A stretch of DNA of 64,000 nt, taken from assembly GCA_964019135.1 (NCBI GenBank), contig OZ025263.1, positions 23,745,639 to 23,809,638 on the forward strand. The letters are read 5' to 3'. The position numbers and the translations under genes are program-made. Each line of letters begins with the position of its first letter. Within the stretch, counting starts at the first letter, position 1. Below the pieces are notes generated by a model. That model did no database searches, was not told the origin of the DNA, and saw only the letters and a list, made by a program, of their open reading frames with translations. The stretch is from Arenicola marina. Lineage: Eukaryota; Annelida; Polychaeta; Arenicolidae. Positions 43,774 to 64,000 of this stretch are shown here, one piece after another.

Positions 43774-45282
43774 CTGCAGTCGAGCCAGAAACAGCGGTGC
43801 TTGCGATCTCTTGGCTTGTTGCGGTAGACGTGGGGCCCGTCACGGTTGTAAACACTTCGGTGGTCACTGATGTGCGATCAGTGGATAGAGTTGTGGCGAT
43901 AAAGGTCGTGCCAGACGAAGACTGAACAGAAACTGTGGTCCCTGACGTTGTCACGGCTGGGGTAGATGTCAGTGTTGATTCAGTGGTCCCAGTGGTTGTC
44001 TCCGTAGACAAAGTGGTCCCTGATGTGGTCACAGCCGGGGTAGACGTCAGTGTTGATTCAGTGGTCCCAGTGGTTGTCTCTGTGGACAAAGTGGTCCCTG
44101 ATGTGGTCACAGCCGGGGTAGACGTCAGTGTTGATTCAGTGGTCCCAGTGGTTGTCTCGGTAGACAAAGTGGTCCCTGATGTGGTAACAGCTGGGGTAGA
44201 TGTCAGTGTTGATTCAGTGGTCCCAGTGGTTGTCTCCGTAGACAAAGTGGTCCCTGATGTGGTCACAGCCGGGGTAGACGTCAGTGTTGATTCAGTGGTC
44301 CCAGTGGTTGTCTCTGTAGGCAAAGTGGTCCCTGATGTGGTCACAGCCGGGGTAGACGTCAGTGTTGATTCAGCGGTCCCAGTGGTTGTCTCCGTAGACA
44401 AAGTGGGCCCTGATGTGGTCACAGCCGGGGTAGACGTCAGTGTTGATTCAGTGGTCCCAGTGGTTGTCTCGGTAGACAAGGTGGTCCCTGAGGTGGTAAC
44501 AGCTAGGGTAGACGTCAGTGTTGATTCAGTGGTCCCAGTGGTTGTCTCGGTAGACAAAGTGGTCCCTGATGTGGTTACAGCCGGGGTAGACGTCAGTGTT
44601 GATTCAGTGGTCCCAGTAGTTGTCTCCGTAGAAAAAGTGGTCCCTGATGTGGTCACAGCCGGGGTAGACGTCAGTGTTGATTCAGTGGTCCCAGTGGTTG
44701 TCTCCGTAGACAAAGTGGTCCCTGATGTGGCAACAGCCGGTGTAGACGTCAATGTTGATTCAGTGGTCCCAGTGGTTGTTTCGCTAGACAAAGTGGTCCC
44801 TGATGTGGTCACAGCCGGGCTAGACGTCAGTGTTGATTCAGTGGTCCCAGTGGTTGTATCCGTAGACAAAGTGGTCCTTGATGTGGTCACAGCCGGGGTA
44901 GACGTCAGTGTTAATTCAGTGGTCCCAGTGGTTGTCTCGGTAGACAAAGTGGTCCCTGATGTGGTCACAGCCGGTGTAGACGTCAGTGTTGATTCAGTGG
45001 TCCCAGTGGTTGTCTCGGTAGACAAAATGGTCCCTGATGTGGTCACAGCCGGGGTAGACGTCAGTGTTGATTCAGTGGTCCCAGTGGTTGTTTCGGAAGA
45101 CAAAGTGGTCCCTGATGTGGTAACAGCCGGTGTAGACGTCAGTGTTGACTCAGTGGTCCCAGTGGTTGTTTCGGTAGACAAAGTGGTTCCTTTGGTGGAG
45201 GTTTCAGTGGTTCCTGAACTTGTCGTGCTAGTTACTGAGGTTTCTGCTGGGGTTGTGCTCACACTGGTGGCCGTCGTGGTAC
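43774..45282 (-). CDS. Mucin repeat exon (TSTPAVT type), 503 codons
   Basis: Acceptor gtttattgcgttag, donor gtaagt; 1,509 nt, phase 1-1, open. Starts TTTATSVSTTPAETSVTSTT, then ~16 highly uniform units with core TSTPAVTTSGTTLSTETTTG. Tail DRTSVTTEVFTTVTGPTSTA is homologous to the tail of exon 40276-42261. It is the first large mucin exon downstream of the SEA array. Confidence 0.85.
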
Positions 45283-45786
45283 CTAACGCAATAAACGTCG
45301 GGTAATCACAAATGGAGCATTCTCACAAACGATATCGTAGGTTGAAATATATATCGTCACACTACAGTTGAATGTAAACAATCATGAGGCATCAATCAAT
45401 TCATAATGTGGCTTCCATCCAGGGTCAAGGATAACATCAATCAGAACCCATATATTAACAAAACATGCAAAGTTGTTAGATGTGTGAATCGATCTCCTTA
45501 CCTGGGCGACTGTGATTTGCATGCAAATATATGTACGGTGTGTTTGGGACAACAAAGTGAACATGGCCTGACTATACACATCGGCATGCAGCAAATACAA
45601 AACATTCAACAAGTAAATCATATATATAAAATGCACATAGGGAAAACAACTTACCTACTTAGAAGCCGCAAACGACATATTCCTTCTTACTACTCTTGTG
45701 AGACAGGTGATAAGCGCCTTATCAACCTGAACACCGTGCGGGCCATTACATTGGGGTTAAAAGGCAAGATATTGTAGACAACCTAC
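45283..45786. other. Intron joining the SEA array to the mucin block
   Basis: 504 bp. The left boundary of SEA repeat unit 1 lies inside it at about 45384. A donor-like gtaagg near 45497-45502 is not conserved in units 2-4 and has no partner. Confidence 0.5.
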
Positions 45787-45840
45787 CTGTAGTTGTAGCC
45801 CCAAGCGTGCTAGCCGTAATTGTCGTAAACGTCTCCGTCG
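45787..45840 (-). CDS. Thr-rich linker exon B, unit 1 (18 codons)
   Basis: Acceptor ccttctttgcag, donor gtaggt; 54 nt, phase 1-1. Encodes TETFTTITASTLGATTT. The same exon occurs in units 2-4 with STSGATTT. In unit 1 it splices in phase to the mucin exon at 43774-45282; in the other units it would splice to the SEA-1 exon of the next unit. Confidence 0.7.
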
Positions 45841-46514
45841 CTGCAAAGAAGGAGACGAATCTGTTATATCTGCTTGTGAGTTGACAGAGATAAACTGGCC
45901 TAGAGGAGGTGTCTTATGCACTATTACACCGGTTTAAAAAAGACTTCAAAAGAATGAAAATTAGCTAATTTTTCATAGATCATGGCTACCCTGTTTAGAG
46001 AAAAACAAAAATCCATGCAAAACTGAGTGGCAGAGGTGGGAGTGTCTAGTTTTCTTCTATTTTGATACACAGTGTATTGACGTGATAGTGGAAATACACT
46101 TTAGGAAAAAACAAATGTTACACGCAGTCCACCAGGAACTTTGCGTCAATGTACATTATGTGATTTGTGTGTATTGTGTGATCAACATGTCCATTGTTTG
46201 GTCTAGCTACATTATGTGATTTCTGTGTATGATGCGATATATGTACACGTTTGATAATGATAGAAGTACATACACAAGGTATATTATTTGATATGTATGC
46301 ACTGTATGATATATGTACGTCATGTGGTATGTGTATGCATTGCATGATATATCACGTATATTGCATTGTATAATTCATGTGATCTGCGTATAGTGTGAAG
46401 CTGCGTGATATGTCAAACTTGATATGTGATCTAAGGTTTCTGTTATGCGCAAAGCTTAATCTTCATCATTATCTACACGACCAACGGCCGCCCACTCCCA
46501 ATCATGTCGCTTAC

Positions 46515-46580
46515 TGGATTTCACCGTGGATGTTGCGCCAGTTATAGTGGTGAACTCAGCGGTAGTGCTCTCGGTCGTCC
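46515..46580 (-). CDS. Thr-rich linker exon A, unit 1 (22 codons)
   Basis: Acceptor gctccatacag, donor gtaagc; 66 nt, phase 1-1. Encodes TTESTTAEFTTITGATSTVK. Conserved in all four units at the protein level while the surrounding intron has drifted, which supports coding. Confidence 0.7.
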
Positions 46581-48061
46581 CTGTATGGAGCAATGCGATC
46601 ATATACACTATGTATATACATTATCTACATCCACTATCCTAACCATTCAATTTTATTAATATATACAAGAAATGAGATTTGATTTGCGCGATAAAAGCTT
46701 GAAATGATTGAAACGAGATCACTCTCGGTAGGCTGTGCAGTATTTAGATAATAACAAAGCAAGAAGAAAAGTGAAATAACATATAAAGAAACTGTATTTA
46801 CATTATTTCCATCTGCTGGTCTTTATTAAATTCATATAATAGTTTCACCCATTGTGGTGTTTATGATTGATATATGGACATATATGTGTGCAGGAACAGC
46901 ACAGTTGAGCAGTGATATAAACTTACTTACCTCAATACAATAACAATAATTATATTTGTTATTATTAAATGCTGTTCAGTTGAAAATTAATGTTTCCGCT
47001 TGCAATTAAATACACATTGGAAAACAATGATAAAACGTGATTCTCCTTGGATACAAATGTTGTTAAGGAACTGTATTCTACGTCTGAGAGTTAAGTCATT
47101 AATGTTATCCAACACCGCTGAAAATGCTAAATTATTGTTGCATGCGACGCACGATATGTAGCGAAGTGGAAATACTGACGTCAACCTTCTGCTCCAGGAA
47201 AAGAATATTGTATTAAATAATGTCATGGCTGATTTGAACAAAAAAACTAAATGTATGTCAACCCACGGGCCTGGCCATGAAAAAAAGTAAAAAAAAATCT
47301 ATTAAGACTGAACAAAAACATGAAATGCAGATGTTATTTTATCTAACTAGACCTATGTCACATGGTAGCAATAAACAACCCGCGTGTCGATATATTAGAT
47401 CCGAGGTTTTGCGCAACGAATACACGTGTACCGGCTGCGAAAACAGGTGTCCATGGGTTACAACGCGTTGCGACCAGCTGCCGGCAACTGTGGAGAATTC
47501 TTCAAACTTTAAGTTGTTTTACTTTAAGGAGTGGGTGTGACACATCTCGCGATGCTTTTGAAGGTTAAACAATAATTAAATCGCCGGTGAATGGCATTAC
47601 TAGTCCTGTGACGTACAACAAACCCATTATCCGTGCTAGCGCATTATTGTCACGTGATGGGACATGTGACGCGTTACGTGCCCCATCAACGGCTGTTACT
47701 CCTATGTCTGCCGACAACTAGCTACAGTCACACACAAGCCCACGGCACCATTTTGGTTATCTTTGGGTAGAAACACTAAGGTGAATGCAAACACTAGTCA
47801 CGAAACGAACAACGAACCCAATATCCGTTCTAGCGCATTATAGTCTCGTGATGAGACATGTGACCAGTCACGTGCTCCATCAACGGCTGTTACTCTTATG
47901 TCTACCGACAACTACCTACAGTCACACACAAGGACACGGCGCCATTTTGGTTAATTTTGGATAGAACCACTGAGGTTAGGCGTGTTATTGAATCCATACA
48001 CAACCAAGCGTATAAGTAGAGGTGTGCTTTTTATCTGGACAACCCCTAAACTGATTTCTAC
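46581..48061. other. Intron between linker exons, unit 1
   Basis: 1.48 kb, AT-rich, with the ~190-bp internal duplication listed separately. The corresponding introns in units 2-4 have the same content. No exon seen. Confidence 0.55.
47611..47975. repeat. ~190-bp internal direct duplication, unit 1
   Basis: The block beginning near ccgtgctagcgcattat (47631) recurs near ccgttctagcgcattat (47823), including gtgatgggacatgtgac and catcaacggctgttactc. Units 2-4 carry related versions. Units 2 and 3 also show a ~56-bp direct duplication of gtttgggtagaaccactgag (near 53154/53211 and 58312/58369). Confidence 0.7.
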
Positions 48062-48208
48062 CTGTGGTACTCTGGCATATGGGCAGGTTCGTCGTATCGG
48101 CACCAGGGTTCAGGTGACTGCCTTGATCTAGAAGAGAATCACCGTGTTGTAGCTGCAATGATGTTGCATCCGACTGTTGCTTAATTACATGAAGTTCAAA
48201 TGACATTA
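48062..48208 (-). CDS. Candidate post-SEA linker exon, unit 1 (49 codons)
   Basis: Acceptor ttattctacaaag, donor gtagaa after CQSTTG; 147 nt, phase 1-1 and open in this unit. Encodes MSFELHVIKQQSDATSLQLQ followed by HGDSLLDQGSHLNPGADTTN and PICQST. Phase agrees with the SEA-3 donor upstream and with linker exon A downstream. Units 3 and 4 have TAA as the third codon with this acceptor, so either the acceptor differs or those copies are dead. No known domain recognised. Confidence 0.5.
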
Positions 48209-48419
48209 CTTTGTAGAATAAGACATAAAACCGCAGTCCTTTAATGTTTTCATTGATATATGTATATCTATATCTGTAATCTCTCTAGTATCATTACCTT
48301 TTATCCAGTTTGAGTTTGGGTAGAAACTTAGCGTGAACAAACTGACAATTTGCCATTGAATGTCGGAGTTTCAATTTGGATGGTTGCATTATCAGAAATA
48401 GTTCATCATCGGACCTTAC

Positions 48420-48553
48420 CAGTTACATTGACCCTATCGTCTCGCACTGTGAAGTTAAACTGGTCCAAATTGTTAGCAATAGTAGCAGCTAGACTTGAAG
48501 TCGTGACAGCACATCCCACCGTCACGTTATACTCCACGATGATACTTCCCGGG
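48420..48553 (-). CDS. SEA domain exon 3 (GSIIV cleavage motif), unit 1
   Basis: Acceptor gtgctttag, donor gtaagg; 134 nt, phase 2 in, phase 1 out. Encodes PGSIIVEYNVTVGCAVTTSS, then LAATIANNLDQFNFTVRDDR and VNVT. The split Ser codon joins SEA-2 to give FSPGSIIVEYNV, the conserved SEA strand-turn-strand with the G-S autoproteolysis site. The remainder is the second helix and last strand (NFTVRDDRVNV). N-glycosylation sequons at NVT, NFT and NVT. One Cys (VGCAV) pairs by position with none of the usual SEA cysteines. Confidence 0.8.
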
Positions 48554-48935
48554 CTAAAGCACCAAAATAAGGGTGTCACGCAAGAAATGAGACAATGATA
48601 CACACTGGATGGCTTTAAAACTATCCCTACTAGACGGGTGTAGAATGAACGTCGAGGGCTGATAGATCGTGCACATACTTTCATAAAGCGACGTTATGGG
48701 CACATGGCGTATTCCGCGCCCATTCATATGTATAGACCGTCACATACACAGTTTGAAGTCAACTCAATAGATATTGAAAGTGGTTGACTAAAGGAAAAAA
48801 CTAACTAATATCACCCAAACAATGTATATACTTGAGCGTACGTTAAGATTGTACCCCTAACACGATGGAGTACTTGGGCTACGTTTCAATCTGTTTGCAT
48901 CTTAGACAAAACTACCAGGTGGAACATATATAATC

Positions 48936-49217
48936 AGGAGCGGAACCAGGAATTTGAAAAGAGGGGGCGGCGGGTCCAAACTTTTCGACCGGGGAATTTG
49001 AGACGGGGGGCGGGGCGGGGTGGGGCGGGGGGGTCAATGCCGCCTCAGATAGCGCTCATCCTCAAAGAAAACATCCTAATGGGGGGTCCACGCCCAGATA
49101 GCCTGAAATTTGCATTGAAAAACGGCATTCTTCCTAAAAAATTATGGTTGTGGGAGATTGTGGGGTGGTCCGGACCCCCTGGACACCCCCCCCCCCTCCC
49201 CACTTGGATCCGTCCTG
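48936..49217. mobile_element. hAT-like MITE, SEA unit 1 copy
   Basis: Ends AGGAGCGGAACCAGG and, from the other side, CAGGACGGATCCAAG form imperfect inverted repeats. Flanks atataatc (48928-48935) and gtataatc (49218-49225) match at 7 of 8 bases, as expected for the 8-bp target duplication of hAT elements. No transposase. The interior is dominated by poly-G and poly-C tracts. The same insertion occurs in units 2 and 3. Confidence 0.55.
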
Positions 49218-49314
49218 GTATAATCGGACAAACTGTTTTATGTGACTTAACATTCATTCGATTACTGTCGCGATATAGAGATAATGTATTATTTGATTGA
49301 CAGTTGCAATTTAC

Positions 49315-49388
49315 CTAAACACGAAGGCGTCAACGCTAACCAGTTGTTGCTCAAGTAGCCCCGTCACGAAAACCAAGATGTGTCGCGT
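49315..49388 (-). CDS. SEA domain exon 2, unit 1
   Basis: Acceptor attgacgctttcag, donor gtaaat; 74 nt, phase 0 in, phase 2 out. Encodes TRHILVFVTGLLEQQLVSVD plus AFVF and the first two bases of Ser. It supplies the first-helix end and the strand (LVSVDAFVF) that leads into GSIIV in SEA-3. Found because the SEA-1 and SEA-3 exons needed a phase 0 to phase 2 connector; this is the only segment that fits, and it is conserved in units 2 and 3. Confidence 0.8.
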
Positions 49389-49866
49389 CTGAAAGCGTCA
49401 ATGTTACCATAATCATGAGAAGACATCAAAGCGACTATTTGTTCTCCAAGCTTGGGGTACCACCAACCTTTGAGTATATACTCAATACCTTTGAGTATAT
49501 ACTCAATACTTTGAGTATTGAGTAGAACAACGAATAACTTGCGTGGAGTTTACACCATTGCGGTCTGTTATCTGTTCATACTGTGACACGCGTATCGCGT
49601 CACAACCTTCACATCACTTGTTTACCAAACGATAAAATATCCAAGTATAAACCACAGTAAACAACTTTCAGGTAAAGGGCAATGGGAAAACTGGGAATGC
49701 GAGATAATATTGGCGGAATTTTTAACAATTTACCTATTATTGCAGTGACTGATCATTTCAATATATAGTTGTGTAATACAGCGACCGCTAAAATATATAC
49801 AAAACGGTTATATTGTAAATAGTACAGTGAGTAGTGAAACAGATAACTATCTGCTTCCAGTTTTAC

Positions 49867-49994
49867 CTGGGTATCTATCTCATCCGATAGTTCTAAGTAA
49901 GATAGAGAAGTGCCGTCTTTTAAGGCATCCTCGAAAGTCCTGTCTTCTATTACAAACACCACCAGGTACACTCGACACACGTCGCCAAAGCTAG
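49867..49994 (-). CDS. SEA domain exon 1, unit 1
   Basis: Acceptor gcttttatttacag, donor gtaaaa; 128 nt, phase 1 in, phase 0 out. Encodes SFGDVCRVYLVVFVIEDRTF plus EDALKDGTSLSYLELSDEID, the first SEA strand and helix (VFVIEDRTFEDAL..YLELSDEI). It lacks 15 nt (SSVTC) present after FG in units 2 and 3, an in-frame deletion or the ancestral state. Confidence 0.8.
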
Positions 49995-50982
49995 CTGTAA
50001 ATAAAAGCACCGGGAAACAAATATTAACCACAGCGCCGTGCAAGGCTAGCACATCGCGACTTGTCTTCAGGGGGCCCTGCAATTCTAGCACATCGCAACT
50101 TGTCTTCACAGTGCCTTGCAAGGTTAGCAAATAGCGACTTGTCTTCACAGTGCTTTCAAAGGTCAGCACATCGCGATGGGGGAGCTGAAAGATATCACTA
50201 GTTCGACTGTAGTCGTACATTGCTTTTCACATATCCTAAGCTGGGATACGATGGATAGGAGTTACATAACACGAAACGTTCAGGACTAAAATGCACTTTA
50301 CATGCACACGCCCGTTCCTCACAACCAATTTAACGGGCACGAGTTACCTGGCGATGGGTGGCTAAGGAGGGAATGTGTTAAGCCACCTATGACTTTCATC
50401 ATAAAGCTATGCCCCCTGTGTTACATGTCCACTTGCTTACGAGATCGATCTTCCCGCAGCGATATATCTGAGTAAGCGTATTCGCGATGGAGCTTTACAA
50501 AATGACATTTTTACGTACGAGTTTCCCAGGTCGAGCATTTCAAAGTGATATTTAAGTGCAAGGGTAATCACAATTATGAGGCATCAATCAATTCATAATG
50601 TGGTTTCGATCTGCGTTCAAGGATAACATCAATCAGAAGACTACATATATATAACAAAACATGCAAAGTTGTAAGGTGGGTGAATCGATTTCCTTATCTG
50701 GGCGACTGCGATTTGCATGCAAGTATATGTACGGTGTGTGTGGGACAACAAAGTGAACATGGCATGACTGTACACATCGGCAGGCAGCAAATACAAAACA
50801 TTTAACAAGTAAATCATATATATATAATGCATATAGGGAAAACAACTTACATACGTAGATACCGCAAACAAAGATTTCCTACCTGCTACTCTTGTGAGGC
50901 AGGTGACAAGCGCCTTATCAACCTGAACACCGTGCGGGCCATTACATTGGGGTTAAAAGGCAAGATATTGTAGACAACCTAC
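49995..50982. other. Intron between SEA units 1 and 2
   Basis: 988 bp. Contains the 39-bp minisatellite and the unit boundary at 50576. No convincing exon; donor-like gtaag sites here lack phase-compatible partners. Confidence 0.55.
50039..50180 (-). repeat. 39-bp tandem repeat (13-codon period), unit 1
   Basis: Three and a half units start at 50039, 50078, 50117 and about 50156 (tgcaaggctagcacatcgcg and variants). On the minus strand the frame is open, with 13-residue repeats LQGTVKTSRYLLT / LQGTVKTSCDVLE. In unit 1 this frame runs on into SEA-1, but in units 2 and 3 it does not, so it is probably intronic. Confidence 0.7.
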
Positions 50983-51036
50983 CTGTAGTTGTAGCCCCAG
51001 ACGTGCTAGCCGTAATTGTCGTAAACGTCTCCGTCG
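50983..51036 (-). CDS. Thr-rich linker exon B, unit 2
   Basis: 54 nt, phase 1-1, donor gtaggt. Encodes TETFTTITASTSGATTT. Splices in phase to SEA-1 of unit 1, giving a SEA-linker-SEA protein. Confidence 0.7.
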
Positions 51037-51743
51037 CTGCAAAGAAGGAGACGAAGTGTAAACGCAATTACTAAAAACGTCTTCGATCCCACGCGTGTAT
51101 TACGAGTTATAAAACATTCAGTGCGCTACGCCTAGTTGCCGATCGTATATCTGTTATATCTGCTTGTGAGTTGACAGAGACAAACTGGCCTTGAGGAGGT
51201 GTCTTATGCACTATTACACCGGTTTAAAAAGGACTTCAAAAGGATGAAAATTAGCAAATTTTTCATAGGTCATGGCTACCCTGTGTGGAGAATAAAATCC
51301 ATGCAAAACTGAGTGGCAGAGGTGGGGGTGTCTAGTTTTCTTCTATTTTGACATACAGTGTATTGACGTGAGAGTGGAAATACATTTTAGGAAAAAAACT
51401 AAAGTTTAACGAAGTTCACCAGGAATTTTGCGTCAGTGTACATTATGTGGTTTGTGTGTATTGTGTGATAAACATCTATGTACATTGATCTAGCTACATT
51501 ATGTGATTTCTGTGTATGATGCGATATATGCAAATTTTTCATAATGATATAAATATATACATAAGGTATATCGTGATATGTATTCATTGTATGATATGTC
51601 ACGTATATTGCATTGTATAGCTCATGTAATCTGCGTTATATGTCAAACTTGAATCTGATCTACGATTTTTGTTATGCGCAAAGCTTAATCTTCATCATTA
51701 TCTGCACGACCAACGGCCGCCCACTCCCAATCACGTCGCTTAC

Positions 51744-51809
51744 TGGATTTCACCGTGGATGTTGCGCCAGTTATAGTGGTGAACTCAGCGGTAGTGCTCT
51801 CGGTCGTCC
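51744..51809 (-). CDS. Thr-rich linker exon A, unit 2
   Basis: 66 nt, phase 1-1, donor gtaagc, acceptor gctccatacag. Protein identical to the unit 1 copy. Confidence 0.7.
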
Positions 51810-53328
51810 CTGTATGGAGCAATGCGATCATATACACTATGTATGTACATTATCTATATACACTATCCTAACCATTCTATTGTATTAACATATACAAAGA
51901 ATGAGATTTGATTTGCACGATAAAAGCTTGAAATGATTGAAACGATATCACTCTTGGCAGGCTGTGCAATATGTAGATAAGACCAAAGCAAGAAGAAAAG
52001 TGAAATAACATATAAAGAAGCTGTATTTACATTATTTCCATCTGATGGTCATGATTAAATTCATATAACAGATTTACTCGTCGTGGTATTTATGATTGAC
52101 ATATGGACATATATGTGTGCAGAAGCAGCACAGTTGAGCAGTGACATAAACTTACTTACCTCAATACAATAACAATATTATGTTTGTTATTATTAAATGC
52201 TGTTCAGTTGAAAATTAATGTTTCCACTTGCAATTAAATACACATTGGAAAACAATGATAAAACGTGATTCTCCTTGGATACAAATGTTGTTAAGGAACT
52301 GTATTCTACGTCTGAGAGTTAAGTCATTAATGTTATCCAACACCGCTGAAAATGATAGGTTGTCAAATTATTGTTGCATGCGACGCACGATATATAGCGA
52401 AGTGGAAATACTGACGTCAACCTTCTGCTCCAGGAAAAGAATATTGTATTAAATAATGTCATGGCTGATTTGAACAAAAAACAAAATGTATGTTAACCCA
52501 CGGGCGTGGCCATGAAAAAAAGTTAAAAAAATATATTAAGACTGAAAAAAAAACATGAAATGCAGATGTTATTTTATCTAACTAGACCTATGTCACATGG
52601 TAGCAATAAACAACCAGCGTGTCGATATATTAGATCCGAGGTTTTGCGCAACGAATACACGTGTACCGGCTGCGAAAACAGGTGTCCATGGGTTACAACG
52701 AGTTTCGACTAGCTGCTGGCAACTGTGGATAATTTTTCAAAATTTAAATTGTTTTACTTTAAGGAGTGGCTGTGACACCGCTCGCGATGCTAATCAATAA
52801 TTAAATCGCCGGTGAATGACATTACTAGTCATGTGACGTACAACTAACCCATTATCCGTGCTAGTGCATTATAGACACCTGTTGGGACATGAGACTAGTC
52901 ACATGCTCCATCAACGGCTGTTACTCCTATGTCTGCCGAAAACTAGCTCCAGTCACGCACAATTTCACAGCAATATTGTGGTTAACTTTGGGTAGAAACA
53001 CTGAGGTGAATGTAAACACTAGTCACGAAACGAACAACCCACCCAATATTCGTTCTAGCGCATTATAGTCTTGTGATGGGACATGTGACCAGTCACGTGC
53101 CCCATCAACGGCTGTTACACTTATGTGCACCGACAACGGCACCATTTTGGTTAAGTTTGGGTAGAACCACTGAGGTTAGGTGTGTTATTCAATTCGCCAT
53201 ACACAACCAAGTTTGGGTAGAACCACTGAGGTTACGCGTGTTATTCAATTCGCCATACACAACCAAGCGTATAAGTGGAGTTGTGCTTTTTATCTGGACC
53301 ACCTCTAAACCTCTTAGCTGATTTCTAC

Positions 53329-53475
53329 CTGTGGTACTCTGGCATATAGCCAGGTTCGTAGTATCAGCAACAGGATTCCGGTAACTGCCAAGATCTAGAA
53401 GGGAATCACCGTGTTGTAGCTGCATTGCTTTTGCATCCGACTGTTGCTTAATTACACGAAGTTCAAATGACATTA
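53329..53475 (-). CDS. Candidate post-SEA linker exon, unit 2
   Basis: 147 nt, phase 1-1, open: MSFELRVIKQQSDAKAMQLQ, then HGDSLLDLGSYRNPVADTTN. Only this unit and unit 1 read through the first codons with this acceptor. Confidence 0.5.
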
Positions 53476-53686
53476 CTTTGTAGAATAAGACATAAAACCG
53501 CAGGCCTTTAATGTTTTCATTGATATATGTATATCTATATCTGTAATCTCTCGAGTATCATTACCTTTTATCCAGTTTGAGTTTGGGTAGAAACTTAGCT
53601 TGAATAAACTGACAATTTGCCATTGAATGTCGGAGTTTCAATTTGTAAGGTTGCATTATCAGAAATAGTTCATCATCGGACCTTAC

Positions 53687-53820
53687 CAGTTACATTGACC
53701 CTATCGTCTCGCACTGTGAAGTTAAACTGGTCCAAATTGTTAGCAATGGTAGCAGCTAGACTTGAAGTCTTGACAGCACATCCCACCGTCACGTTATACT
53801 TCACGATGATACTTCCCGGG
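53687..53820 (-). CDS. SEA domain exon 3, unit 2 (GSIIV)
   Basis: 134 nt, phase 2 to 1, acceptor gtgctttag, donor gtaagg. Encodes PGSIIVKYNVTVGCAVKTSS; Glu to Lys after GSIIV distinguishes this unit from units 1 and 3. Confidence 0.8.
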
Positions 53821-54174
53821 CTAAAGCACCAAAATAAGGGTGCCACGCAAGAAATGAGACAATGACACACGCTGGATGGCTTTAAAACTATCGCTACTAG
53901 GCTGGTATAGAATGAACGTCGAGGGGTAATAGATCGTGCACATACCCCGATAAAGCGACGTTATAGGCACATGGCGTATTCCGCGCCCATTTATATATAT
54001 AGACCGTCACATACACAGTTTACTAAAGGGAAACATTAACTAATATCACCCAAACAATTTATATACTTGAGCGTACGTTAAGATTGTACCGATAACCCGA
54101 TGTAGTACTTCGGCTACTTTTCAATCTGTTTGCATCTTAGACAAAACTACCAGCCAGGTGGAACATATATAATC

Positions 54175-54432
54175 AGGAGCGGAACCATGAATTTAAAAAG
54201 TGGGGGGGGGTCCGAACTTTGCGACCGGGGAATTTGTGACGGGGGGCGGGGCGGGGGGGGATCAATGCAGCCTCAGATAGCGCTCATCCTCGAACAAAAC
54301 ATCCTAATGGGGGCTCCACGCCCAGATGGCCTAAAATTTGCATTGAAAAACGGCATTCCTTCTCAAGAATGAAGGTTGTGGGAGAGGGCGGGGTGGTCCG
54401 GACCCCCTGGACACACCCCTGGATCCGCCCTT
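54175..54432. mobile_element. hAT-like MITE, SEA unit 2 copy
   Basis: Same insertion as in unit 1, with flanks atataatc and gtataatc. 258 bp; slightly deleted inside compared with unit 1. Confidence 0.5.
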
Positions 54433-54529
54433 GTATAATCGGGCAAAGTTTTTTTTGTGACTTAACATTTATTCGACTACTGTCGCGATTCAGAGATAAT
54501 GTATTATTTGATAGACAGTTGCAATTTAC

Positions 54530-54603
54530 CTAAACACGAAGGCGTCAACGCTAACCAGTTGTTGCTCAAGTAGCCCCGTCACGAAAACCAAGATGCGTCG
54601 CGT
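54530..54603 (-). CDS. SEA domain exon 2, unit 2
   Basis: 74 nt, phase 0 to 2. Encodes TRRILVFVTGLLEQQLVSVD plus AFVF; His to Arg at residue 3 compared with unit 1. Confidence 0.8.
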
Positions 54604-55046
54604 CTGAAAGCGTCCATGTTAACATAATCATGAGAAGACATCAAAGCGACTATTTGTTCGCCAAGCTTGTGGTACCACAAACTGACTTTGAGTATTGAGT
54701 AGAACAACGAATAACTTGCGTGAAGTTTACACCATTGCAGTCTATTATCTGTTCACACTGTGACACGTGTATCGCGTCACAACCTTCACAACACTTGTTC
54801 ACCAAACGATTAAATAATATTCAAGTATAAACCACAGAAAACAACTTTCAGGTCAAGGGCAATGGCAAAACTAGGAATGCGAGATAATAATTGCGGAATT
54901 TTTAACAATTTACCTATTATTGCAGAGACTGATCATTTCAATATAGAGTTGTGTAATACTGCGACCGCTAAAATATATAGAAAATGGCTATATTGTAAAT
55001 AGTACAGTGTCTAGTGAAACAGATAACTATCTGCTTCCAGTTTTAC

Positions 55047-55189
55047 CTGGGTATCTATCTCATCCGATAGTTCTAAGTAACATAGAGAAGTGCCGTCTGT
55101 CAAGGCATCCTCGAAAGTCCTGTCTTCTATTACAAACACCACCAGGTACACTCGACACACGTCGCAGGTGACGGAACTGCCAAAGCTAG
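55047..55189 (-). CDS. SEA domain exon 1, unit 2
   Basis: 143 nt, phase 1 to 0. Encodes SFGSSVTCDVCRVYLVVFVI plus EDRTFEDALTDGTSLCYLEL; 15 nt longer than the unit 1 copy, and with two extra Cys residues (VTC and SLC). Confidence 0.8.
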
Positions 55190-55234
55190 CTGTAAATAAA
55201 AGGCAGCGGAAAACAAATATTAACCACAGCGTCA

Positions 55235-55376
55235 TGCAAGGCTAGCACATCGCCACTTGTCTTCAGGGGGCCGTGCAATTCTAGCACATCGCGACTTGTC
55301 TTCACAGTGCCTTGCAAGGTTAGCAAATAGCGACTTGTCTTCACGGTGCTTTCAAGGGTCAGCACATCGTGATGGG
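55235..55376 (-). repeat. 39-bp tandem repeat, unit 2
   Basis: Same array as in unit 1, three and a half units, open on the minus strand but not in frame with SEA-1 here. Confidence 0.65.
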
Positions 55377-56178
55377 GGAGCTGAAAGATATCATTATTTC
55401 GACTGTAGTCGTACATTGCTTTTCATATATCCTAAGCTGGGATACGATGGATAGGAGTTACATAACACGAATCGTTCAGAAATAAAATGCACTTTACATG
55501 CACACGCCCGTTCCTCACAACCAATTTATCTGGCGCGAGTTACATAGCGATGGGTGGCTAAGGAGGGAATGTGTTAAGCCACCTATGACTTTCAACAAAA
55601 ACCTATACCCCATGTGTTACATGTTCACCTGGTTACGAGATCGATCTTCCCCCAGCGATATATCTGAGTAAGAGTATTCGCGATGGAGCTTTAGAAAATG
55701 ACATTTTTACGTACGAGTTTCCCAGGTCGAGCTTTTCAAAGTGATATTTAAGTGCAAGGGTAATCACAATTATGAGGCATCAATCAATTCATAATGTGGT
55801 TTTGATCTACGGTCAAGGATAACATCAATCAGAAGACTACACATATATAACAAAAGATGCAAAGTTGCAAGGCGTGTGAATCGATTTCCTTATCTGGGCG
55901 ACTGTGATTTGCATGGAAGTATATGTACGGTGTGTGTGGGACAACAAAGTGAACATGGCATGACTGTACACATCGGCATGCAGCAAATACAAAACATTCA
56001 ACAAGTAAATCATATATATAAAATGCATATAGGGAAAACAACTTACTTACGTAGATACCGCAAACACAGATTTCCTTCCTGCTACTCTTGTGAGGCAGGT
56101 GTGAAGCGCCTTATCTAGCTGAACAGCGCGCGGGCCATTACATTGGGGTTAAAAGGAAAGATATTGTAGACAACCTAC

Positions 56179-56232
56179 CTGTAGTTGTAGCCCCAGACGT
56201 GCTAGCCGTAATTGTCGTAAACGTCTCCGTCG
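56179..56232 (-). CDS. Thr-rich linker exon B, unit 3
   Basis: 54 nt, phase 1-1, donor gtaggt; same protein as unit 2. Confidence 0.7.
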
Positions 56233-56996
56233 CTGCAAAGAAGGAGACGAAGTGTAAAGCGCAATTAATAAAAACTTCTTCGATCCCACTCGTGTATTAC
56301 GAGTTATTAACATTCAGTGCCCTACGCCTAGTTGCCGATCGTATATCTGTTATATCTGTTTGTGAGTTGACAGAGATAAACTGGCCTAGAGGAGGTATAT
56401 TATGCACTATTACACCGGTTTAAAAAGGACTTCAATAGGATGAAAATTAGCTAATTTTTCATTGGTCATGGCTACCCTGTTTGGAGAAAAATAAATCCAT
56501 GCAAAACTGAGTGGCAGAGGTGGGATGTCTAGTGTTCTTCTATTTTGACATACAGTGTATTGACGTGATAGTGGAAATCCATTTTAGGAAAAAACAAAAG
56601 TTAAACGAAGTCCACCAGGAAGTTTGCGTCAATGTACATTATGTGTGTGTATTGTGTGATAAACATGTATGTACATTGTTTGATCTAGCTACATTATGTG
56701 ATTTTGTAATATGGTGCGATATATGTACATGTTTGATAATGATAGAAGTACATACACAAGGTATATTATTTGATATGTATGCATTGTATGATATATGTAC
56801 GTCATGTGGTATGTGTATGCATTGCATGATATATCACGTATATTGCATTGTATAATTCATGTGATCTGCGTATAGTGTGAAGCTGCGTGATATGTCAAAC
56901 TTGATATGTGATCTAAGGTTTCTGTTGTGCGCAAAGTTTAATCTTCATCATTATCTACACGACCAACGGCCGCCCACTCCCAATCACGTCGCTTAC

Positions 56997-57059
56997 TGGA
57001 TTTCACCGTGGATGTTGCGCCAGTTATAGTGGTGAACTCAGCGGTAGTGCTCTCGGTCC
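56997..57059 (-). CDS. Thr-rich linker exon A, unit 3 (21 codons)
   Basis: 63 nt, phase 1-1, donor gtaagc. One Thr codon shorter than units 1, 2 and 4, an exact 3-nt in-frame deletion at the 5' end of the exon. Confidence 0.7.
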
Positions 57060-58486
57060 CTGTATGGAGCAATGCGATCATATACACTATGTATATACAT
57101 TATCTATATCCACTATCCTAACCATTCTATTGTATTAATATATACAAGGAATGAGATTTGATTTGCACGATAAAAGCTTGAAATGATTTAAACGAGATCA
57201 CTCTCGGTAGGCTGTGCAGTATATCGATAATACCAAAGCAAGAAGAAAAGTGAAATAACATATAAAGAAGCTGTATTTACATTATTTCCATCTGCTGGTC
57301 TTTATTAAATTTATATAACAGTTTCACCCATTGTGGTGTTTATAATTGACATATGGACATCTATGTGTGCAGGAACAGCACAGTTGAGCTGTGACATAAA
57401 CTTACTTATCTCAATACAACAACACTATTATGTTTGTTATTATTAGATGCTGTTTAGTTGAAATTTAATGTTTTCACTAGCAATTAAATACACATTGCAA
57501 AATAATGATTAAACGTGATTTCCTTGGCTGCAAATGTTGTTATGGAACTGTATTCTACGTCTGAGAGTTAAGTCATTAATGTTATCCAACACCGCTGAAA
57601 ATGCTATGTTGTCAAATTATTGTTGCATGCGACGCACGATATGTAGCGAAGTGGAAATACTGACGTCAACCTTCTGCTCCAGGAAAAGAACATTGTATTA
57701 AATAATGTCATGGCTGATTTGAACAAAAAACAAAATGTATGTTAACCCACGGGCGTGGCCATGAAAAAAAGTTAAAAAAATATATTAAGACTGAAAAAAA
57801 AACATGAAATGCAGATGTTATTTTATCTAACTAGACCTATGTCACATGGTAGCAATAAACAACCAGCGTGTCGATATACTAGATCCGAGGTTTTGCGCAA
57901 CGAATACACATGTACCGGCTGCGAAAGCAGGTGTCCATGGGTAACAACAAGGGTCGACTAGCTGCCGGCAACTGTGTCATTACTAGTCATGTGACGTACA
58001 ACTAACCCATTATCCGTGCTAGCGCATTATAGACACGTGGTGGGACATGAGACTAGTCACGTGCTCCATCAACGGCTGTTACTCCTATGTCTGCCGAAAA
58101 CTAGCTCCAGTCACGCACAATTTCACGGCAATATTTTGGTTAACTTTGGGTAGAAACACTGAGGTGAATGTAAACACTAGTCACGAAACGAACAACCCAC
58201 CCAATATTCGTTCTAGCGCATTATAGTCTTGTGATGGGACATGTGACCAGTCACGTGCCCCATCAACGGCTGTTACACTTATGTGCACCGACAACGGCAC
58301 CATTTTGGTTAAGTTTGGGTAGAACCACTGAGGTTAGGTGTGTTATTCAATTCGCCATACACAACCAAGTTTGGGTAGAACCACTGAGGTTACGCGTGTT
58401 ATTCAATTCGCCATACACAACCAAGCGTATAAGTGGAGTTGTGCTTTTTATCTGGACCATCTCTAAACCTCTTAGCTGATTTCTAC

Positions 58487-58633
58487 CTGTGGTACTCTGG
58501 CATATAGCCAGGTTCGTAGTATCAGCAACAGGATTCCGGTAACTGCCAAGATCTAGAAGGGAATCACCGTGTCGTAGCTGCATTGCTTTTGCATCCGACT
58601 GTTGCTTAATTACATGAAGTTCAAGTTACATTA
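58487..58633 (-). pseudogene. Post-SEA linker exon, unit 3, with early TAA
   Basis: Same 147-nt segment, donor gtagaa and acceptor cttattctacaaag, but the third codon of the frame is TAA (plus gttacattac against tgacattac in units 1 and 2). The rest of the frame (HGDSLLDLGSYRNPVADTTN) is intact. Either skipped, spliced from another acceptor, or dead. Confidence 0.45.
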
Positions 58634-58844
58634 CTTTGTAGAATAAGACATAAAACCGCAGGCCTTTAATGTTTTCATTGATATATGTATATCTATATCT
58701 GTAATCTCTCGAGTATCATTACCTTTTATCCAGTTTGAGTTTGGGTAGAAACTTAGCTTGAATAAACTGACAATTTGCCATTGAATGTCGGAGTTTCAAT
58801 TTGTAAGGTTGCATTATCAGAAATAGTTTATCATCGGACCTTAC

Positions 58845-58978
58845 CAGTTACATTGACCCTATCGTCTCGCACTGTGAAGTTAAACTGGTCCAAATTGTTA
58901 GCAATGGTAGCAGCTAGACTTGAAGTCTTGACAGCACATCCCACCGTCACGTTATACTCCACGATGATACTTCCCGGG
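58845..58978 (-). CDS. SEA domain exon 3, unit 3 (GSIIV)
   Basis: 134 nt, phase 2 to 1. Encodes PGSIIVEYNVTVGCAVKTSS, then the same C-terminal half as units 1 and 2. Confidence 0.8.
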
Positions 58979-59332
58979 CTAAAGCACCAAAATAAGGGTG
59001 CCACGCAAAAAATGAGACAATGATACACACTGGATGGCTTTAAAACTATCCCTACTAGGCTGGTATAGAATGAACGTCGAGGGGTAATAGATCGTGCACA
59101 TACCCCGATAAAGCGACGTTATAGGCACATGGCGTATTCCGCGCCCATTTATATATATAGACCGTCACATACACAGTTTACTAAAGGGAAACATTAACTA
59201 ATACCACCCAAACAATTTATATACTTGAGCGTACGTTAAGATTGTACCGATAACCCGATGTAGTACTTCGGCTACTTTTCAATCTGTTTGCATCTTAGAC
59301 AAAACTACCAGCCAGGTGGAACATATATAATC

Positions 59333-59594
59333 AGGAGCGGAACCATGAATTTAAAAAGTGGGGGGGGGGTCCGAACTTTGCGACCGGGGAATTTGTGACG
59401 GGGGGCGGGGCGGGGGGGGGGGATCAATGCCGCCTCAGATAGCGCTCATCCTCGAACAAAACATCCTAATGGGGGGTCCACGCCCAGATGGCCTAAAATT
59501 TGCATTGAAAAACGGCATTCTTTCTCAAGAATGAAGGTTGTGGGAGAGGGCGGGGTGGTCCGGACGCCCTGGACACACCCCTGGATCCGCCCTT
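59333..59594. mobile_element. hAT-like MITE, SEA unit 3 copy
   Basis: Same insertion with the same flanking atataatc/gtataatc; 262 bp, nearly identical to the unit 2 copy except for G-run length. Confidence 0.5.
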
Positions 59595-59691
59595 GTATAA
59601 TCGGGCAAAGTGTTTTTTGTGACTTAACATTTATTCGATTACTGTCGCGATTCAGAGATAATGTATTATTTGATTGACAGTTGCAATTTAC

Positions 59692-59765
59692 CTAAACACG
59701 AAGGCGTCAACGCTAACCAGTTGTTGCTCAAGTAGCCCCGTCACGAAAACCAAGATGCGTCGCGT
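59692..59765 (-). CDS. SEA domain exon 2, unit 3
   Basis: 74 nt, phase 0 to 2, protein identical to unit 2. Confidence 0.8.
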
Positions 59766-60208
59766 CTGAAAGCGTCCATGTTACCATAATCATGAGAAGA
59801 CATCAAAGCGACTATTTGTTCGCCAAGTTTGTGGTACCACAAACTGACTTTGAGTATTGAGTAGAACAACGAATAACTTGCGTGAAGTTTACACCATTGC
59901 AGTCTATTATCTGTTCACACTGTGACACGTGTATCGCGTCACAACCTTCACAACACTTGTTCACCAAACGATTAAATAATATTCAAGTATAAACCACAGA
60001 AAACAACTTTCAGGTCAAGGGCAATGGCAAAACTAGGAATGCGAGATAATAATTGCGGAATTTTTAACAATTTACCTATTATTGCAGAGACTGATCATTT
60101 CAATATAGAGTTGTGTAATACTGCGACCGCTAAAATATATAGAAAATGGCTATATTGTAAATAGTACAGTGTCTAGTGAAACAGATAACTATCTGCTTCC
60201 AGTTTTAC

Positions 60209-60351
60209 CTGGGTATCTATCTCATCCGATAGTTCTAAGTAACATAGAGAAGTGCCGTCTGTCAAGGCATCCTCGAAAGTCCTGTCTTCTATTACAAACA
60301 CCACCAGGTACACTCGACACACGTCGCAGGTGACGGAACTGCCAAAGCTAG
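60209..60351 (-). CDS. SEA domain exon 1, unit 3
   Basis: 143 nt, phase 1 to 0, protein identical to unit 2 including the SSVTC insert. Confidence 0.8.
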
Positions 60352-60396
60352 CTGTAAATAAAAGGCAGCGGAAAACAAATATTAACCACAGCGTCA

Positions 60397-60538
60397 TGCA
60401 AGGCTAGCACATCGCCACTTGTCTTCAGGGGGCCGTGCAATTCTAGCACATCGCGACTTGTCTTCACAGTGCCTTGCAAGGTTAGCAAATAGCGACTTGT
60501 CTTCACGGTGCTTTCAAGGGTCAGCACATCGTGATGGG
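60397..60538 (-). repeat. 39-bp tandem repeat, unit 3
   Basis: Same array and spacing as in unit 2. Confidence 0.65.
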
Positions 60539-61340
60539 GGAGCTGAAAGATATCATTATTTCGACTGTAGTCGTACATTGCTTTTCATATATCCTAAGCT
60601 GGGATACGATGGATAGGAGTTACATAACACGAATCGTTCAGAAATAAAATGCACTTTACATGCACACGCCCGTTCCTCACAACCAATTTATCTGGCGCGA
60701 GTTACATGGCGATGGGTGGCTAAGGAGGGAATGTGTTAAGCCGCCTATGACTTTCAACAAAAACCTATACCCCCTGTGTTACATGTTCACCTGGTTACGA
60801 GATCGATCTTCCCCCAGCGATATATCTGAGTAAGAGTATTCGCGATGGAGCTTTAGAAAATGACATTTTTACGTACGAGTTTCCCAGGTCGAGCTTTTCA
60901 AAGTGATATTTAAGTGCAAGGGTAATCACAATTATGAGGCATCAATCAATTCATAATGTGGTTTTGATCTACGGTCAAGGATAACATCAATCAGAAGACT
61001 ACACATATATAACAAAAGATGCAAAGTTGCAAGGCGTGTGAATCGATTTCCTTATCTGGGCGACTGTGATTTGCATGGAAGTATATGTACGGTGTGTGTG
61101 GGACAACAAAGTGAACATGGCATGACTGTACACATCGGCATGCAGCAAATACAAAACATTCAACAAGTAAATCATATATATAAAATGCATATAGGGAAAA
61201 CAACTTACTTACGTAGATACCGCAAACACAGATTTCCTTCCTGCTACTCTTGTGAGGCAGGTGTGAAGCGCCTTATCTAGCTGAACAGCGCGCGGGCCAT
61301 TACATTGGGGTTAAAAGGAAAGATATTGTAGACAACCTAC

Positions 61341-61394
61341 CTGTAGTTGTAGCCCCAGACGTGCTAGCCGTAATTGTCGTAAACGTCTCCGTCG
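61341..61394 (-). CDS. Thr-rich linker exon B, unit 4
   Basis: 54 nt, phase 1-1, donor gtaggt; same as units 2 and 3. Confidence 0.7.
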
Positions 61395-62159
61395 CTGCAA
61401 AGAAGGAGACGAAGTGTAAAGCGCAATTAATAAAAACTTCTTCGATCCCACTCGTGTATTACGAGTTATTAACATTCAGTGCCCTACGCCTAGTTGCCGA
61501 TCGTATATCTGTTATATCTGCTTGTGAGTTGACAGAGATAAACTGGCCTAGAGGAGGTATATTATGCACTATTACACCGGTTTAAAAAGGACTTCAATAG
61601 GATGAAAATTAGCTAATTTTTCATTGGTCATGGCTACCCTGTTTGGAGAAAAATAAATCCATGCAAAACTGAGTGGCAGAGGTGGGAGTGTCTAGTGTTC
61701 TTCTATTTTGACATACAGTGTATTGACGTGATAGTGGAAATACATTTTAGGAAAAAACAAAAGTTAAACGAAGTCCACCAGGAAGTTTGCGTCAATGTAC
61801 ATTATGTGTGTGTATTGTGTGATAAACATGTATGTACATTGTTTGATCTAGCTACATTATGTGATTTTGTAATATGGTGCGATATATGTACATGTTTGAT
61901 AATGATAGAAGTACATACACAAGGTATATTATTTGATATGTATGCATTGTATGATATATGTACGTCATGTGGTATGTGTATGCATTGCATGATATATCAC
62001 GTATATTGCATTGTATAATTCATGTGATCTGCGTATAGTGTGAAGCTGCGTGATATGTCAAACTTGATATGTGATCTAAGGTTTCTGTTGTGCGCAAAGT
62101 TTAATCTACATCATTATCTACACGACCAACGGCCGCCCACTCCCAATCACGTCGCTTAC

Positions 62160-62225
62160 TGGATTTCACCGTGGATGTTGCGCCAGTTATAGTGGTGAAC
62201 TCAGCGGTAGTGCTCTCGGTCGTCC
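62160..62225 (-). CDS. Thr-rich linker exon A, unit 4
   Basis: 66 nt, phase 1-1, donor gtaagc; it retains the Thr codon lost in unit 3. Confidence 0.7.
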
Positions 62226-63525
62226 CTGTATGGAGCAATGCGATCATATACACTATGTATATACATTATCTATATCCACTATCCTAACCATTCTATTGTA
62301 TTAATATATACAAGGAATGAGATTTGATTTGCACGATAAAAGCTTGAAATGATTGAAACGAGATCACTCTCGGTAGGCTGTGCAGTATATCGATAATACC
62401 AAAGCAAGAAGAAAAGTGAAATAACATATAAAGAAGCTGTATTTACGTTATTTCCATCTGCTGGTCTTTATTAAATTTATATAACAGTTTCACCCATTGT
62501 GGTGTTTATAATTGACATATGGACATCTATGTGTGCAGGAACAGCACAGTTGAGCTGTGACATAAACTTACTTATCTCAATACAACAACACTATTATGTT
62601 TGTTATTATTAGATGCTGTTTAGTTGAAATTTAATGTTTTCACTAGCAATTAAATACACATTGCAAAATAATGATTAAACGTGATTTCCTTGGCTGCAAA
62701 TGTTGTTATGGAACTGTATTCTACGTCTGAGAGTTAAGTCATTAATGTTATCCAACACCGCTGAAAATGCTATGTTGTCAAATTATTGTTGCATGCGACG
62801 CACGATATGTAGCGAAGTGGAAATACTGACATCAACCTTCTGCTCCAGGAAAAGAACATTGTATTAAATAATGTCATGGCTGATTTGAACAAAAAACAAA
62901 ATGTATGTTAATCGACGGGCGTGGCCATGATTTTTTTTTTTTAAATCTATTAAGACTGAAAAAATAGATCAAAAGGGAGATGTTATTTTATCTAACTAGA
63001 CCTATGTCACATGGTAGCAATAAACAACCAGCGTGTCGATATATTAGATCCGAGGTTTTGGGCAACGAATACACATGTACCGGCTGCGAAAGCAGGTGTC
63101 CATGGGCTACAACGTGTTTCGACTAGCTGCCGGCAACTGTGGATAATTCCACAGGAATAAAATTAAAATTGTTTTACTTTAAGGAGTGGCTGTGACACAT
63201 CTCGCGATTCTAATGAAGGTTAATCAATTATTAAATCGCCGATGAATGACATTACTAGTCATGTGACGTACAACGAACCCATTATCCGTGCAAGCGCATT
63301 ATAGTCACGTGATGGGACATGTGGCCAGACACGTGCCCCATCAACGGCTTTTACTCTTGTGTCTACCGATAACTAGCTACAGTCACACACAAGCCCACGG
63401 CACCATTTTGGTTAACTTTGGGTAGAACCACTGAGGTTAGGTTTGTTATTCAATCCGCCATACACAACCAAGCGTATAAGTGGAGTTGCGCTTTTTATCT
63501 GGACCACCTCTAAACTGATTTCTAC

Positions 63526-63672
63526 CTGTGGTACTCTGGCATATGGCCAGGTTCGTGGTATCCGCACCAGGGTTCATGTAACTGCCTTGATCTAGAAGGG
63601 AATCACCGTGTTGTAGCTGCATTGCTTTTGCATCCGACTGTTGCTTAATTACATGAAGTTCAAATTACATTA
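63526..63672 (-). pseudogene. Post-SEA linker exon, unit 4, with early TAA
   Basis: 147-nt segment with donor gtagaa. As in unit 3, the third codon is TAA with the standard acceptor. The remainder reads KQQSDAKAMQLQHGDSLLD and NPGADTTNLAICQST, intact. Confidence 0.45.
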
Positions 63673-63883
63673 CTTTGTAGAATATGACATAAAACCGCAG
63701 CTCTTTAATGTTTTCATTGATATATGTATATCTATATCTGTAATCTCTCTAGTATCATTACCTTTTATCCAATTTGAATTTGTGTAGAAACTTAGCTTGA
63801 ATAAACTGACAATTTGCCATTGAATGTCGGAGTTTCAATTTGGAAAGTTGCATTATCAGAAATAGTTCATCATCGGACCTTAC

Positions 63884-64000
63884 CAGTTACATCGACCCTA
63901 TCGTCTCGCACTGTGAAGTTAAACTGGTCCAAATTGTTAGCAATGGTAGCAGCTAGTCTTGAAGTGTTGACAGCACATCCCACGGTCACGTTATACTCCA
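63884..64000 (-). CDS. SEA domain exon 3, unit 4 (partial)
   Basis: 3' 117 nt of the exon, donor gtaagg. The acceptor and the start of the GSIIV motif lie beyond the window. Visible protein: EYNVTVGCAVNTSRLAATIA, NNLDQFNFTVRDDRVDVT, with three substitutions relative to unit 3. Confidence 0.75.

Follow-up and report, generated by a model that had tools for sequence, protein, structure and literature searches.

The question raised by this locus is whether a set of small, regularly repeated exons encodes an array of SEA domains and, if so, in what kind of protein. The window analysed here is a 64,000-nucleotide stretch of the genome of the polychaete Arenicola marina (contig OZ025263.1, C18:23745639-23809638; 867 Mb and 762 contigs searched). 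An annelid origin agrees with the mitochondrial genes: the 15.9-kb contig C762 carries cox1, and the frames around it were read by eye, under the invertebrate mitochondrial code, as nad3-nad2-cox1-cox2-atp8-cox3, an order known from annelids. Positions are counted from its first nucleotide, and the numbering is carried past both window ends (above 64000 and into negative values). The first-pass annotation of this DNA had proposed that a SEA domain is split over three small minus-strand exons, and this reading held. The exons, e1 (49867..49994; 128 nt), e2 (49315..49388; 74 nt) and e3 (48420..48553; 134 nt), have AG/GT borders and phases 1-0, 0-2 and 2-1; joined, they would specify 111 residues with no stop. 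The motif assigned to the expected cleavage turn, FSPGSIIVEYNV, sits at the e2/e3 join, with PGSIIV at the start of e3. The three-exon cassette as a whole is symmetric (phase 1-1). The explanation that we regard as probable is that the locus belongs to a membrane-tethered giant mucin whose SEA array descends from a juxtamembrane SEA of the same protein and provides it with cleavable joints. The window would then correspond to the middle of a very large minus-strand gene.

The cassette is one part of a larger repeat. Complete three-exon sets are found, as annotated, in unit 2 (e1, 55047..55189; e2, 54530..54603; e3, 53687..53820) and in unit 3 (60209..60351, 59692..59765 and 58845..58978), in each case on the minus strand and with lengths of 143, 74 and 134 nt. 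Unit 4 had been described as partial. It is indeed cut by the window end, its e3 (63884..64000) running on to 64017, but it is complete in the genome: the sequence just past the window, which was to be checked for more units, holds the remaining e2 (64492-64565) and e1 (66470-66612; 143 nt). Every border is AG/GT and the spliced frame is open in all four units. Successive units are spaced by 5267, 5158 and 5039 nt, in line with the ~5.2 kb first estimated. Unit 1's e1 lacks 15 nt, in frame, that are found in units 2-4; the neighbouring intron shows a 1-nt difference. Each SEA set is followed by the predicted Thr-rich linkers, in the form of two minus-strand exons, L1 and L2, that have AG/GT borders and phase 1-1 in all four units (46515..46580 and 45787..45840 in unit 1; 51744..51809 and 50983..51036 in unit 2; 56997..57059, 3 nt shorter in frame, and 56179..56232 in unit 3; 62160..62225 and 61341..61394 in unit 4). 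From summed exon lengths, the five-exon repeat amounts to 152, 157, 156 and 157 aa in units 1-4, and the resemblance to the SEA-linker organisation of MUC16 pointed out at the start is thereby borne out. A candidate extra exon at 48121-48062 was dropped, its acceptor being lost in units 2 and 3.

Does the spliced segment represent a SEA domain? When the segment of unit 1 was compared with the 24,736 families of Pfam, SEA (PF01390), the model suggested for this check, was matched at E 0.013 and proved to be the sole family matched by all five unit variants; the name was thus recovered, but with 16 bits, under the gathering cut-off of 26.4. The relevant test is of one family, not 24,736, because SEA had been named from the letters before any search. 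No match at E ≤10 was returned for e1 alone, for e3 alone, with e2 skipped, with the exon order swapped or with the peptide reversed, HMMER's filters dropping most matches above 0.1. Appending the linkers left SEA at E 0.017 and added the E3-ligase family GIDE at E 0.022, which is taken as a chance match. In an alignment with the human MUC1 SEA, in which F-x-P-G-S is aligned, the score was reached by 4 of 3000 shuffles. Several results weigh against the identification. The four variants with individual scores (E 0.013-0.1; 13.2-16.1 bits) all fall under the cut-off, the MUC1 SEA used as positive control attaining 52.9 bits. Compared with a profile of seven known SEAs, the array alone gave an hhalign probability of 1.8%, equalled by 2 of 200 shuffles, and no SEA structure came up when the PDB was searched with one array SEA or with the array alignment. 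Low scores between SEA domains are usual: in the PDB, the MUC1 SEA itself reaches the SEA of the mouse MUC16 homologue with an E value of only 0.0079. The top PDB match of the array alone, a picornavirus VP3 chain (E 0.14 and 0.82), was judged to be due to chance. A six-frame search of the whole genome with PF01390 yielded no match; since 14 control genomes gave none either, the search is uninformative on absence.

Independent support for the identification comes from the gene's own juxtamembrane SEA, which has equal intron positions, equal phases and two equal exon lengths. It lies downstream of the window, on the minus strand, near the end of a series that runs EGF, NIDO (PF06119; E 2.3e-12), AMOP, VWD (PF00094; E 3.6e-5 and 1.6e-5 on two exon pieces), C8-3_MUC4 (PF23263; E 8e-11), Ig-like, EGFs, juxtamembrane SEA, hydrophobic segment and tail. 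The juxtamembrane SEA, matched by Pfam at E 7.9e-5, is encoded by exons of 146, 74 and 134 nt, as against 143, 74 and 134 nt in array units 2-4. Its phases (1-0, 0-2, 2-1) are those of the array, and both domains are split at the same two places: the last juxtamembrane exon begins at the PG of PGT, and array e3 at the matching pair in PGS. The array and juxtamembrane sequences align at a BLASTP E value of 8e-10, ungapped over both splice junctions, with a score that none of 5000 shuffles reached. The score of the juxtamembrane SEA against MUC1 was reached by 13 of 3000 shuffles. When array and juxtamembrane SEA were combined in a joint profile, comparison with the seven known SEAs gave an hhalign E value of 2.4e-4 (probability 43%), and the top PDB match became the adhesion receptor ADGRF1 (E 0.0023); the part matched is presumably its SEA domain. 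A point on the other side is that the juxtamembrane SEA, too, stays under the Pfam cut-off (23.2 bits versus 26.4) and is matched only at profile positions 2-56. The spliced segment might instead be an unrelated small extracellular domain with a weak SEA score arising by chance, as the sub-threshold Pfam scores and the weak stand-alone profile match would allow. Such a domain would have to share by accident its three-exon anatomy and its similarity with the juxtamembrane SEA, and we consider this very improbable.

Beyond the juxtamembrane SEA lies a transmembrane-like helix (21-residue hydropathy of 3.35), for which the sequence indicates an entry phase of 1. The gene appears to be of MUC4 type at its C-terminus and to carry a MUC16-like SEA-linker array; the presence of the juxtamembrane SEA makes it MUC4-like rather than MUC4 proper. 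The AMOP match (PF03782) argues the other way in being weak (E 0.031; 14.8 bits, with a cut-off of 25). Two further features of this region may be recorded. A Big_9 (Ig-like) piece, matched at E 1.1e-5, lies at -21201 to -20923, near VWD and C8-3; such Ig-like domains are unusual in MUC4-like proteins. A Cys-rich motif is repeated over short exons at -4.8 to -12.8 kb, in the stretch that separates the mucin exons from the EGF/NIDO part. A Ly6-like identity of these repeats was discarded for want of significant Pfam support.

The array had been placed N-terminal to giant mucin blocks. Mucin exons do occur downstream, beginning with a proline-, threonine- and serine-rich (PTS) exon at 43774..45282 (minus strand; 1509 nt, phase 1-1), but the placement is incomplete, as the array is sandwiched: a ~36-kb mucin frame lies upstream. 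This is a single stop-free minus-strand frame of 11,966 aa, 70% of them Thr, at C18:23813861-23849758 (68223-104120). Flanked by candidate phase-1 splice borders, it is probably one giant mucin exon. Among 21 Thr-rich frames, candidate acceptors in phases 0, 1 and 2 number 5, 13 and 2, and candidate donors 5, 20 and 4 (a rough motif count with no control), a distribution that fits one phase-1 gene. The predicted protein would include, in this order, the 11,966-aa Thr-rich stretch, four SEA-linker repeats of ~157 aa, more mucin exons and a Cys-rich stretch; it would end with EGF, NIDO, possibly AMOP, VWD, C8-3, Ig-like, EGF repeats, juxtamembrane SEA, transmembrane helix and tail. Still further upstream, at ~104000-134000 (C18:23.85-23.88 Mb), are ~4-kb repeats of Thr-rich, coding-like sequence in which the Thr frame is broken within each repeat; they may be coding, intronic or decayed.

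C18 holds six sets of VWD, NIDO and juxtamembrane SEA exons, all in a single orientation. At least one array e3 lies upstream of each of these six gene copies, on the same strand. The e3 exon was found 15 times in all (4, 4, 1, 4, 1 and 1 copies in genes 1-6, assigned by position) and e1 13 times. The juxtamembrane exons measure 146 nt in five of six genes, 74 nt in all six and 134 nt in five of six; the exceptions are a first exon of 145 nt in gene 1, whose juxtamembrane SEA frame may be broken, and a last exon of 128 nt in gene 3. The units of genes 1, 2, 4 and 6 are 87-100% identical. Two pairs of genes, 1/4 and 3/5, whose members lie hundreds of kb apart, show 99.8-100% identity over ~3.1 kb: for genes 1 and 4 this is the range among corresponding units, and for genes 3 and 5 the aligned 3.1 kb of the loci show 100% identity. 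Such figures might reflect recent segmental duplication or duplications in the assembly; in the latter case the cluster would really be smaller than six genes. An assembly origin seems the less likely, in that the spacing of elements varies from copy to copy and genes 2 and 6 stand apart; the window array is in any case independent of the gene copies. The VWD search returned 20 matches altogether. Apart from the six near-identical ones, 14 show 44-62% identity and are spread over C18 (4.26-35.13 Mb), C13 and C2; ten of the 14 being on C18, their distribution suggests that this chromosome also carries mucin-like paralogues of greater divergence.

The cluster also bears on how the cassettes are maintained. 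They could be relics that recent tandem duplication has left behind and that are seldom, if ever, included in the transcript, their frames being open only because they are young. The high identity among the units of genes 1, 2, 4 and 6 would be expected of such relics, and some findings tell in their favour and against a functional array. In genes 3 and 5 the single e3 contains a TGA, and neither e1 nor e2 was found in the 3.1-kb loci of these genes. Among ten pairs formed by units 1-4 and the gene 6 unit (pairs that are not independent), dN and dS have similar values, dN being the higher in five; the pair u1/x15 has 13 nonsynonymous codons and 1 synonymous codon. Purifying selection at the protein level is thus unsupported. 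Four observations speak against relics. Of 13 complete e1-e2-e3 trios, 11 were read spliced, and all 11 have open frames and intact splice sites. The length changes of e1 (15 nt) and of L1 in the window gene (3 nt) are both in frame, next to an intron that differs by 1 nt. Exon divergence is lower than intron divergence in all ten pairs, by a factor of 1.7-4.3; in the seven pairs for which the difference was tested, p ranged from 2e-5 to 0.018 in six and was 0.1 for units 2 and 3. Finally, the array copies keep their introns where the distant juxtamembrane SEA has them. Taken with the points in their favour, relics seem to us improbable. Separately, it may be noted that the synonymous divergence of the SEA exons is also below intron divergence in all ten pairs.

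On the explanation preferred here, the array SEAs are paralogues of the juxtamembrane SEA that spread as a symmetric phase 1-1 cassette of three exons and were subsequently amplified in tandem together with the linkers. Each would be expected to fold into a globular bead within the mucin stalk. Self-cleavage is suggested by the conservation of the G-S turn and the hydrophobic strand (PGSIIV) in the array copies. Cleavage might occur during folding, leaving the two halves held together as a non-covalent pair; such a pair could act as a force-sensitive joint at which the giant outer mucin is shed. Overall, the molecule would carry a very large, Thr-rich head on a long stalk above a foot of MUC4 type. 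The juxtamembrane SEA, which has G-T at the turn, may be less prone to cleavage, judging from its sequence. A less probable but serious alternative is that the array SEAs fold intact and act as spacers only, shedding being left to the juxtamembrane SEA. Most MUC16 repeats may be spacers of this sort, a cleavage-like motif having been confirmed in only one MUC16 SEA according to the passages cited (PMC3431878), and the surroundings of the turn are altered in the gene 6 unit, which reads NGSINV. Yet G-S is present in all 15 array copies of e3 and G-S-I-I-V in 14 of 15, with G-T in the juxtamembrane SEA, which is the opposite of what a spacer-only role predicts. This last point is qualified by the consideration that retention of G-S may just reflect the young age of the copies.

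Comparison with known mucins delimits the novelty of this arrangement. MUC16 repeats are described, in the passages cited, as a SEA domain plus a Ser/Thr-rich linker, 156 aa long and encoded by five exons each (PMC3431878, PMC10829539). The present repeats also have five exons, and their 152-157 aa bracket the MUC16 figure; in both proteins the array is C-terminal to a giant mucin region. The two differ in that here there are four repeats, mucin exons flank the array on both sides and the C-terminus is of MUC4 type. The genomic unit is ~5.2 kb long here and ~1.9 kb in MUC16, and all 15 copies here have the G-S turn, whereas the cleavage-like motif is given as confirmed in only one MUC16 SEA (PMC3431878). 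A human MUC3B exon provides a measure of size: its PTS exon spans 39,267 bp as reported in the text cited (PMC9578598), so the 36-kb mucin exon predicted here is no record. The gene also resembles the MUC3/MUC12/MUC17 group in being one of a cluster of membrane mucins that contain SEA and have giant single mucin exons. To our knowledge, those proteins have no NIDO or VWD and one SEA each, and the C-terminus of MUC16 is likewise devoid of NIDO, VWD and EGF. The array is organised like that of MUC16, but the predicted protein is not a MUC16 member, as NIDO, VWD and EGF are present.

With MUC4 the gene shares NIDO, VWD, C8-3_MUC4, EGF and a transmembrane-like helix behind the mucin region. The passages cited describe MUC4 as a transmembrane mucin without SEA (PMC9080433), whereas here a juxtamembrane SEA and a SEA array are found. 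The same source refers to mucin4-like proteins of sea anemones (Actinia tenebrosa and others), NIDO-AMOP-VWD mucins some of which have one extra C-terminal SEA (PMC9080433); that SEA is single, while the Arenicola gene has an additional four-copy array within the mucin region. Within the Lophotrochozoa, a shell-matrix protein of the limpet Lottia gigantea is listed with several SEA domains (PMC3374290), but the listing presents it as chitin-binding or chitinase-like and not as a MUC4-like mucin. Among the titles and abstracts listed for invertebrate or annelid mucins with SEA domains, none was recognised as describing the combination of a MUC4-type mucin with a SEA array.

This combination bears on two statements found in the texts cited: that MUC16 alone among mucins has multiple SEA domains, as was stated in 2006 (PMC1552070), and that MUC4 has no SEA. 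It bears likewise on the proposal, cited in the portion of PMC9080433 referred to here, that MUC4 derived from a SEA-bearing ancestor and later lost the domain. It is conceivable, if improbable, that the five-exon repeats of MUC16 and those described here represent one ancient gene unit. Both the MUC4 and MUC16 types would then stem from one early animal mucin with NIDO-VWD, a juxtamembrane SEA and a SEA array, the array here forming four cleavable joints in series. Apart from this, the locus offers an example of a phase-symmetric three-exon SEA cassette copied inside one gene, and a naturally occurring protein in which several SEA joints, each potentially cleavable, follow one another. The empty result of the six-frame PF01390 search indicates, in addition, that SEA domains split over exons can escape searches of that kind.

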